From contig NZ_PGEX01000001.1 of NCBI RefSeq assembly GCF_002797675.1, positions 310,001-374,000 of the forward strand: DNA of 64,000 bases, in the 5' to 3' direction. Numbering within the stretch: the first letter of the stretch is position 1; each line of letters starts with the position of its first letter. The notes beneath the pieces were generated by a model. The model was not told the DNA's origin. It searched no databases and was given only the letters and a program-made list of their open reading frames with translations. The translations under genes were made by a program, and so were the position numbers. The stretch is from Hallerella succinigenes. Its GTDB lineage: Bacteria; Fibrobacterota; Fibrobacteria; Fibrobacterales; Fibrobacteraceae. Positions 60,146 to 64,000 of this stretch are shown piece by piece.

Positions 60146-60898
60146 ATGCCTATTTCATTCATTGTCTTTGTTCTCATTGGATTTATCATTGTCGCTGTCG
60201 GCGCTTATCGACTCGGGGCTCACTTTAGCCATGCCGCCAAGCGGGAACAACCCGAAGAAAAGAACTCCATTCCTTACGATAAATGCGTCGCTGGGAACAC
60301 GTCCAAATTCCAGTATGGAAGCCTTACCGACGCACGCGACGGCGAAACTTACCGCACCATTCGAATCGGGAATCAAGTCTGGATGGCAGAAAACCTGCGC
60401 TTTCATGCAGAAGGAAGTTTTGCCCCGAACAACCATGAAGAAAATGTCAAAGTGCATGGCAGACTCTACACGTGGAATTCCGCACTGGGTCTTCCAGATG
60501 AACCGCCTGAAGATTCTACAGCAAGCCACCTCGACATGACGAAGCAAATCCGCGAAAAGAACTACCAGGGCATTGCACCGGAAGGTTGGCACATTCCAAG
60601 CAACAAGGAATGGGAAACCCTGATGGCTCAGCTAAAATCAAGCGATGAAGACCTGCGCAGTGGCTGCTTTTGGCGCAAGCCGGGCAGGGATTCCCTCGGA
60701 TTTTTCGCCCTGCCTGCCGGTTACCGCTTTGGCAACGGAAGTTTCTTGCACTTTGGCGACCGCACCCGCTTCTGGAGCAAAGACGAATACTGTGGCAGAT
60801 CCAACGCTTATCGCTTTGGCATCACCGAAGAATCGATGGACATCGAAGGCATTTACCGTTCCGATGCCATTTCTGTCCGCTGCATCCAGAATTCTTAA
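60146..60898 (+). CDS. FISUMP-domain protein with N-terminal membrane anchor
   Basis: This 250-residue protein has one membrane helix (about 4-22) and a Fibrobacter succinogenes major paralogous domain (about 55-248). FISUMP signatures present: TDARDGETYRTIRIGNQVWMAENL (in part), GRLYTWNSA, APEGWHIPSNKEWETL, FFALPAGYR, FWSKDEY and the final ISVRCIQ. The C-terminal segment is diverged and not rich in NNC codons, unlike the two tandem paralogues at 62.6-64 kb. Function unknown; FISUMP proteins are thought to be surface proteins. AAGGAG precedes the ATG. Confidence 0.85.
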   Translation: MPISFIVFVLIGFIIVAVGAYRLGAHFSHAAKREQPEEKNSIPYDKCVAGNTSKFQYGSLTDARDGETYRTIRIGNQVWMAENLRFHAEGSFAPNNHEENVKVHGRLYTWNSALGLPDEPPEDSTASHLDMTKQIREKNYQGIAPEGWHIPSNKEWETLMAQLKSSDEDLRSGCFWRKPGRDSLGFFALPAGYRFGNGSFLHFGDRTRFWSKDEYCGRSNAYRFGITEESMDIEGIYRSDAISVRCIQNS

Positions 60899-62634: not shown

Positions 62635-62647
62635 AGGTTGACAACCT
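62635..62647. repeat. short palindrome at the FISUMP stop codon
   Basis: AGGTTGACAACCT, a near-perfect inverted repeat, overlaps the stop codon of the FISUMP gene and follows the variable tract by about 22 bp. Diversity-generating retroelement targets often have an inverted repeat just 3' of the variable region. Confidence 0.4.
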
Positions 62648-63647
62648 AGTCCTTTACACAACGAACGGAATGCCCGTAGTACTTACTGTTGTAGTACAGG
62701 TACGCGCGGTCGTAGTAGTAGTACAAGAGCATGCCGTACGCGTAGTAACTACTGCTCTCCGTAGAACTCCAGAAGTACGCGTAGCGGCCCTCGTCGATGA
62801 AATCCCCACTGAGGAACCTGTAGCCGGCAGGCAACGCCGAGAAACCGAAAGAGTCCTCATTGGTGATTCCGTCATATGCCGTCCAACCCGTCTGCGACTT
62901 GAGCTTGGCACCGGCTGTGGATTTACCGCCCACTGCCGTGAACAGCGTATTCCATTCATCGTAGCTTGGCAAGTGCCAACCCTCGGGGCAAACTATTTTT
63001 GCTGCCGCCCAGGTGTAAAGGCGACCGTATTTTTCGCAATTTGCAGCGACATTGCCGTAACACCAGCTATTTTCCTTGAGACTCGGGGTCTTCACGCTGT
63101 CTGCATAATTCAGGTTCTCTGCCATCCACACTTGTTCGCCGATTTTCACCGTCTTGTATGTGTTGCCGTCGCGGGAGTCGGTCATGGTGCCGTAGATAAT
63201 ACCCATCTCACTGCTAGAACTTTGCTCATTTTCGCTAGAGCTCGAATTCACATCAGCAGAACTGCTGGATTGCGTCGCTTCGCTCGAACTGGATTGCGGC
63301 GCCTCGCTCGAACTGGATTGTGGCGCCTCGCTTGAACTGGATTGCGTTGCCTCGCTCGAACTGGATTGCGGCGCCTCGCTCGAACTGGATTGTGGCGCCT
63401 CGCTTGAACTGGATTGCGGCGTTTCACTCGAAGAAGAACTTTCCATGACACTCGAAGAAGAACTCTCTATGGCACTAGAAGACAAGCCGTCATTACGAAT
63501 CGTCGAAGAGGACGAAGGAATCTCCACGGCACTCGAGGAAGACAGTTCCTCAATTTCCGTATCCTTGGCAGAAGCACTGTCACTATCGCAGGCGACAAGC
63601 ATCGCAGACAGGGCGAATGCACCAACAAACAGTTTCGTGAAATTCAT
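62646..63647 (-). CDS. FISUMP lipoprotein with serine-block linker and hypervariable C-terminus
   Basis: I chose the ATG at 63647 (333 residues), 7 nt after GGAGGG. A lipoprotein signal ends in the lipobox MLVAC. A linker (about 25-150) follows, made of SSSS blocks separated by EAPQ/EATQ. A FISUMP domain (about 155-333) contains GTMTDSRDGNTYKTVKIGEQ, VWMAENLNY, GRLYTWAAAK, CPEGWHLPSYDEW, YAYFWSSTE and SVRCVKD. The last 60 codons hold many NNC codons for Tyr, Ser and Arg that differ from its neighbour. Inference: surface ligand-binding protein, possibly a target of mutagenic retrohoming. Confidence 0.9.
   Translation of the reverse strand: MNFTKLFVGAFALSAMLVACDSDSASAKDTEIEELSSSSAVEIPSSSSTIRNDGLSSSAIESSSSSVMESSSSSETPQSSSSEAPQSSSSEAPQSSSSEATQSSSSEAPQSSSSEAPQSSSSEATQSSSSADVNSSSSENEQSSSSEMGIIYGTMTDSRDGNTYKTVKIGEQVWMAENLNYADSVKTPSLKENSWCYGNVAANCEKYGRLYTWAAAKIVCPEGWHLPSYDEWNTLFTAVGGKSTAGAKLKSQTGWTAYDGITNEDSFGFSALPAGYRFLSGDFIDEGRYAYFWSSTESSSYYAYGMLLYYYYDRAYLYYNSKYYGHSVRCVKD
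62670..62816 (-). other. hypervariable tract (candidate DGR variable region), copy 1
   Basis: These 49 codons align without gaps to 63782-63928. The two differ at 19 codons and 30 nucleotides; 29 differences lie in codon positions 1 or 2, none is synonymous, and 18 of the 19 codons keep a third base C or T. The flanks are identical. Confidence 0.65.
63271..63414 (-). repeat. 24-bp minisatellite with 72-bp higher-order repeat in the linker
   Basis: Six 24-bp units (eight residues SSSSEAPQ or SSSSEATQ) form two 72-bp copies, 63271-63342 and 63343-63414, that differ at only two bases. Looser units extend on both sides. Confidence 0.85.
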
Positions 63648-63757
63648 GAAACCCTCCATTAAATCTATTTACCGCATAAATTTAATAAACAAAAAAACGG
63701 CAGGCGAAGCACTGGCCAGAAAAAGAGGAAATCTAAAAGGATACAACCCTGGAATTG

Positions 63758-64000
63758 CTAGTCCTTTACACAACGAACGGAAAGCCCGTAGTACTTACTG
63801 TAGTACTCCAGGTACGCGTAGTCGCTGCCGTAGTACAAGTACATGTAGTACGCGTAGTTACTACCGTACTCCGTAGAACTCCAGAAGTACGCGTAGTTGC
63901 CCTCGCCGTAGTAATTCCCAATGCTGTTCCTGTAGCCGGCAGGCAACGCCGAGAAACCGAAAGAGTCCTCATTGGTGATTCCGTCATATGCCGTCCAACC
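63758..64000 (-). CDS. FISUMP protein, C-terminal part (cut by window end)
   Basis: The last 80 codons of a second FISUMP gene lie upstream of, and in the same direction as, the lipoprotein above, with 110 bp between stop and start. It contains DSFGFSALPAGYR, NYAYFWSSTEYG and LSVRCVKD. From 63929 to the window end the DNA is identical to 62817-62888 (72 of 72 bases), and the last 24 bases before the stop are identical as well. Between these flanks the sequence is hypervariable. The start and any signal peptide are outside the window. Confidence 0.88.
   Translation of the reverse strand, partial: GWTAYDGITNEDSFGFSALPAGYRNSIGNYYGEGNYAYFWSSTEYGSNYAYYMYLYYGSDYAYLEYYSKYYGLSVRCVKD
63782..63928 (-). 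other. hypervariable tract (candidate DGR variable region), copy 2
   Basis: This is the partner of 62670-62816. Codons are mostly TAC, AAC, GGC and AGC, as expected from an AAC/AAT-rich template altered at adenines. Confidence 0.65.

Follow-up and report, generated by a model that had tools for sequence, protein, structure and literature searches.

Three tandem FISUMP genes of Hallerella succinigenes as apparent orphaned targets of a diversity-generating retroelement

In the diversity-generating retroelement (DGR) of Bordetella phage BPP-1, template and target are related by A-specific changes; its target is a phage tail-fibre and its cassette acts in cis, and in both respects it differs from the locus described here. 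The Fib_succ_major domain is itself a recorded DGR target (PMC4159848; cited again in PMC8934634). The Fib_succ_major DGRs of the human microbiome resemble our array in that adenine-specific substitutions fall in the C-terminal domain of a lipoprotein, but they come from human metagenomes in which template and reverse transcriptase (RT) are present, whereas the array belongs to a Fibrobacter host whose genome has neither (PMC4159848). Isolates of Treponema denticola without an RT keep their DGR target genes, and multiple gains and losses have been proposed (PMC4891356). There too the targets are lipoproteins with adenine-type variation and the RT and template are lost or absent; however, sister strains of T. 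denticola carry the cognate template, whereas no template with the backbone of the array was found among 111 genomes of the Fibrobacteraceae. A DGR remnant has been described in cyanobacteria (PMC7517822), and DGRs can act in trans on dispersed targets (PMC10907252, PMC7517822). The target domain and RT-less targets are already known, and it is the spread of related tracts through family genomes that mostly lack an RT, together with the missing matching template, that is less expected. We found no description of FISUMP DGRs in Fibrobacter itself in the literature searched, which takes in few subscription journals.

The window, the whole 64,000-nucleotide stretch analysed here, spans positions 310001-374000 of a genome that consists of one 3.127-Mb contig, is rated 100% complete and shares its genus with Fibrobacter intestinalis ATCC 43854. 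In the last 1.4 kb of the window, one FISUMP gene lies whole on the minus strand and another is represented by its 3′ portion; a third copy follows (Table 1). The copy 1 protein has a signal peptide with a lipobox-like LVAC (assigned by eye), Ser-rich repeats and a C-terminal Fib_succ_major domain. FISUMP proteins form one of the largest paralogous families of Fibrobacter: the window genome has 51 FISUMP domain matches, and F. succinogenes S85 has 54 FISUMP, classed alongside cellulose-binding proteins (PMC4704652). Genome G003 has the same array between the same flanking genes, so the locus is old. Another FISUMP gene lies near the array on the opposite strand (window 60146-60898, plus strand) and is without the variable pattern.

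Table 1. Positions of the array features and of the F. intestinalis cassette (window coordinates unless stated otherwise).
Feature	Position	Strand	Basis and remarks
FISUMP gene copy 1	62646..63659	-	ORF call; 337 aa; TIGR02145 E=4.6e-63, PF09603 E=4.4e-38
Copy 1 variable region, 147 bp	62670..62816	-	Codon table of three copies; inferred-template scoring
Copy 1 overwritten zone	62646..62870	-	Three-copy alignment; matches copies 2 and 3 save at adenine-type sites; 3′ limit is the stop codon
FISUMP gene copy 2, 3′ part	63758..64000	-	ORF call; continues to genome 374627; full length 289 aa
Copy 2 variable region, 147 bp	63782..63928	-	Inferred-template scoring
Copy 2 overwritten zone	63758..63982	-	Three-copy alignment
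FISUMP gene copy 3	genome 374646-375569		Immediately outside the window; third in tandem array
Inverted repeat GGTTGTCAACC	62636..62646	-	Directly 3′ of copy 1 stop
F. intestinalis ATCC 43854 cassette	L071, NZ_FUWU01000058		Order: FISUMP gene 1, FISUMP gene 2, Avd-like ORF, template, RT

The original prediction saw the mutation pattern of a DGR in the two FISUMP genes at the window end, and its counts were reproduced exactly. In the 147-bp tract, copies 1 and 2 align without gaps between identical flanks and differ at 30 bases spread over 19 codons (15 at first, 14 at second and 1 at third positions), with no synonymous change and with A on one side in 22 of the 30. Comparison with further FISUMP 3′ ends extends the pattern to the third tandem gene, beyond the window, which differs from copies 1 and 2 at 30 and 31 bases, 0 and 1 of them at third positions. 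When all three genes are compared, the 59-codon tract, which lies at their 3′ ends, varies at 41 bases (22 at position 1, 18 at position 2 and 1 at position 3), again none synonymous, and variable and fixed codons interleave every one to three codons. One codon, TAC/GAG, had been set aside as a misfit. It is one, but it reads GAC in copy 3, so the misfit comes down to one base, a single C-to-G change in copy 2.

Just upstream of the tract, each pair of these genes shows 11-14 synonymous codon differences and 18-25 third-base differences over 82-110 codons, whereas inside the tract a pair has no synonymous difference and 0-1 at third bases. The near-identical zone reaches ~54 bp 5′ of the LPAG motif on one side and the stop codon on the other, and beyond the stop codon the copies do not align. 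This sharp drop in synonymous divergence indicates that, once the genes had duplicated and diverged, the tract was rewritten from a single template rather than simply inherited through duplication. Other template-like FISUMP tracts of the window genome have 12-22% non-A differences, so the tandem array alone is fresh.

That FISUMP genes can serve as DGR targets is borne out by the congener F. intestinalis, in which a complete cassette is present (Table 1). Its RT carries GLPIGNLTSQ...YVDD, and thus the (I/L/V)GxxxSQ motif; the closest PDB entry is 8ub7 (E=4e-32), the Bordetella phage BPP-1 DGR RT, and this homology is a further likeness between the two systems. The second half of the Avd-like ORF weakly matches Avd (NF033474, E=0.028). 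The template is non-coding and rich in AAC/AAT codons. The two targets differ from it at 27/57 and 29/57 adenines but at only 2/120 and 9/120 other bases, the lower figure of each pair (27/57 and 2/120) belonging to FISUMP gene 2, so that RT motif, template and A-specific target are all found at the one locus. This DGR (L071/L106) shares with the array its genus, its target family and a gapless tract alignment, and its template has AA-codons at most variable sites of the array. Unlike the array it is intact, and its template backbone differs at about 30/120 non-A bases, for which reason we rejected it as the cognate template of the array. Two remote FISUMP variable genes on other F. intestinalis contigs (C64 and C29; L075, L076) depart from the template at 28-33 of its 57 adenines. 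Non-A differences common to both genes suggest that a second type of template exists, one not found in the F. intestinalis assembly. The strong hairpin that lies 3′ of the cassette genes also follows the C64 gene.

A template with A at every variable site had also been predicted. We inferred one by placing A at the variable sites of the three copies, with a few positions guided by the F. intestinalis template; it has AA-codons at the variable sites on a backbone TTGCCTGCCGGCTACAGG...GAGGGC...GCG...TTCTGGAGTTCTACGGAG.... Against it, copies 1, 2 and 3 are changed at 31, 25 and 28 of 71 A sites and at 0, 1 and 0 of 133 non-A sites, a scoring that is partly circular because the same three copies built the template. 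The template of G102, another genome of the Fibrobacteraceae, was kept out of the inference. It has AA-codons at 23/25 variable codons of the array versus 6/34 others (p=7e-9); seen from its own codons, 23/29 AA-codons vary in the array versus 2/30 other codons, and by base the agreement with array variation reaches p=3e-16. The inferred and G102 templates have 24/26 AA-codons in common, and among all loci compared the sequences that retain most of the inferred adenines are the templates adjoining RTs. The prediction thus recovers templates that sit beside DGR-type RTs in relatives. Substitutions at A sites are T 42, G 29 and C 13, C-poor as in most true template/target pairs. T and tyrosine (TAC) are over-represented in the tracts, which counts against a DGR explanation. 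The invariant codons AGT, ACG, GAG, ATG and AAG hold adenines that are unchanged in the three copies and likewise in most relatives, so selection has to be invoked for them.

DGR-type machinery is found elsewhere in the phylum. The RT search gave matches in 38 of 168 genomes at E<=1e-10; GLPIGNLTSQ occurs in all 23 family/phylum RTs among the matches listed, and the full-length ones examined also have YVDD. Template/target pairs adjoining the RTs of G102, G075, G105 and G094 are clean, with 0 non-A changes in most; true pairs in relatives include 30/69 A changes with 0/108 non-A and 34/67 with 0/107. A DGR-type RT in another genome (L102, G067:C4) is in two pieces through a frame break and is possibly decaying in place. 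A prophage-like DGR in Fibrobacter (L169 3136-6339 in G086:C51; also L175 and L163) lies with Mu-type baseplate/tail genes and consists of a target ending SVRLVKD, an Avd-like ORF, a template and an RT of ~435 aa, with template and target 90% identical. The RT clade of ~435 aa (G129, G086, G135, G075) was rejected as a source for the array, since its members lie in apparent Mu-type prophages with their own template and a tail-fibre-like target.

In the window genome, searches of the single-contig, 100% complete sequence returned no RT, Avd or template. The RVT_1 reverse transcriptase model (PF00078) has no match there; the same search does detect the RT of congener G001 and is thus a fair test. 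The F. intestinalis RT as query has no match at E<=1, and Avd has none at E<=10, with a query that is itself only a weak Avd (E=0.028 to NF033474). The 26 template candidates scored with the inferred template are FISUMP genes and short chance matches, and a template pattern search of the genome returned only a variable region. At genome 2492.8 kb lies a truncated FISUMP (117 aa, L045 4677-5030), which was rejected as a template because it is not AAC-rich and has 16/133 non-A mismatches. With RT, Avd and template all missing from the genome, the three tandem genes are best read as orphaned DGR targets, and the lack of RT and template counts against a DGR process running there. The original prediction held that DGR targeting of these lipoproteins is current or ended only recently. 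The recent past is supported by the scars and by the DGRs of relatives, whereas the present tense is unsupported without the machinery. The prediction had also staked the reading on an RT and a template somewhere in the genome; neither was found, which goes part of the way to refuting it for this genome. The RTs and templates of relatives support the mechanism.

We consider it probable that the array was written by mutagenic retrohoming and that the machinery has since been lost. An RT would have reverse-transcribed a template repeat of AAC/AAT codons with errors at adenines, and the resulting cDNA would have replaced the 3′ end of each FISUMP gene, so that diversification fell on the final strands and loops of the lipoproteins' Fib_succ_major domain. 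The loss of RT, Avd and template most likely followed the final write, and that write would be recent relative to the gene duplication. It is retrohoming in the lineage itself, rather than import of ready-made variable tracts, that we infer to have written the copies.

The strongest rival holds that the tracts are still renewed from outside, either by a DGR carried on some unsampled mobile element or by homologous recombination importing tracts from RT-carrying strains, so that the chromosome would bear the targets alone. DNA matches to the inferred template at E<=1e-15 occur in 79/111 Fibrobacteraceae genomes (one per species), most without an RT, although most of the 79 are drafts, the non-A sites are defined from the window genome's template and a match at this level is no proof of recent DGR writing. 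Among the 27 tract-bearing genomes that are >=98% complete, 19 have no match to RVT_1 or to an F. intestinalis-type RT. Fresh tracts occur in RT-less genomes including G074, G124 and, most strikingly, G123, in which a tandem FISUMP pair (C1, 249-250 kb; L116) has 26 amino acid differences in the tract and 0 synonymous ones over 110 upstream codons. The silent backbone is common to two genera, with 4-18% synonymous differences in the tract versus 26-72% upstream; between the window genome and most species of another genus the upstream figure is 30-72%. RTs of another family (f7) nest within the Fibrobacteraceae RTs (support 98/95 and 95/88), which suggests that cassettes move horizontally. With so many RT-less species carrying fresh tracts, independent recent loss in each is possible but an uneasy explanation. 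Set against renewal from outside is the absence of a matching template wherever we searched. A matching backbone at <=3 mismatches occurs in the 111 family genomes only as FISUMP variable tracts; viral contigs have no match to two template patterns, with one distant FISUMP only; and the inferred template has no match in plasmid and phage collections. Furthermore, backbone differences within the array number 0-1 versus a minimum of 3 between genomes, which speaks for writing within the lineage. For the array we therefore regard renewal from outside as improbable. For the family as a whole, we suggest only tentatively that the 'EG'-backbone FISUMP tracts, whose RT or template is found in 0/111 genomes, may be a shared repertoire kept without a resident retroelement, through a transient mobile DGR or tract exchange. 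Two genomes filed as different species (G104 and G136) are 100% identical over 9,000 bases (L156 4654-13653 = L157 1-9000), with contamination or misbinning likely; this identical 9 kb excluded the pair as independent genomes for the static-versus-variable test.

Point mutation under very strong diversifying selection on binding residues, without any template, would account for changes that are all non-synonymous, that lie in a predicted C-type-lectin-like domain and of which many alternate with fixed residues in predicted strands. It fares poorly at silent sites. When codons at the 25 variable sites were redrawn from window codon usage with the amino acid kept, 23.6 third-base departures were expected (minimum 12 in 20,000 draws) versus 1 observed. 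The copies likewise show 0 synonymous differences in the tract versus 5-18% upstream, and the silent backbone is conserved between genera. Selection also leaves unexplained that the variable codons coincide with AA-codons of a real DGR template and that all tract pairs differ by about 30 whatever the duplication age, and we judge it highly improbable. Gene conversion among paralogs, which tandem near-identical genes favour and which could have made the flanks homogeneous, is less probable still: it would have erased the interleaved variable codons too, the homogeneity ends at the stop codon, and no variable blocks shared between copies were seen.

The Fib_succ_major domain is modelled with a pLDDT of 92. 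C-type lectins make up most of its top fold matches in the PDB, with the C-terminal domains of Legionella Lcl and Bdellovibrio Bd2740 in addition; the matches are weak (E>=0.016, TM<=0.41), and that to Lcl_C of Pfam is below its cut-off. A C-type-lectin fold is thus likely for the predicted domain. The variable residues map to its final strands and loops, where they often alternate with fixed ones, and may form the ligand-binding face. DGR-diversified FISUMP surface lipoproteins would suggest a role in recognising changing ligands, and the widespread RT-less targets make it testable what becomes of a DGR repertoire once the retroelement is gone and whether it is serviced from outside.

The inverted repeat downstream of copy 1 had been proposed as a DGR element. 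The repeat is real, being the only match to GGTTGYCAACC in 64 kb (0.05 expected), and variable FISUMP genes in G003, G076, G077 and G124 and at genome 2492.8 kb are followed by GGTTGCCAACC or a close variant of it. However, it is short, and no 3′ hairpin follows copies 2 and 3, so its role as a DGR 3′ hairpin is uncertain. Strong hairpins do lie 3′ of the cassette-linked targets of F. intestinalis. In several species, a recurring TAGGTTGCCAACC(GCCAAGCCCCCTCC) overlaps the stop codon of variable FISUMP genes (L168, L167, L166, L074).
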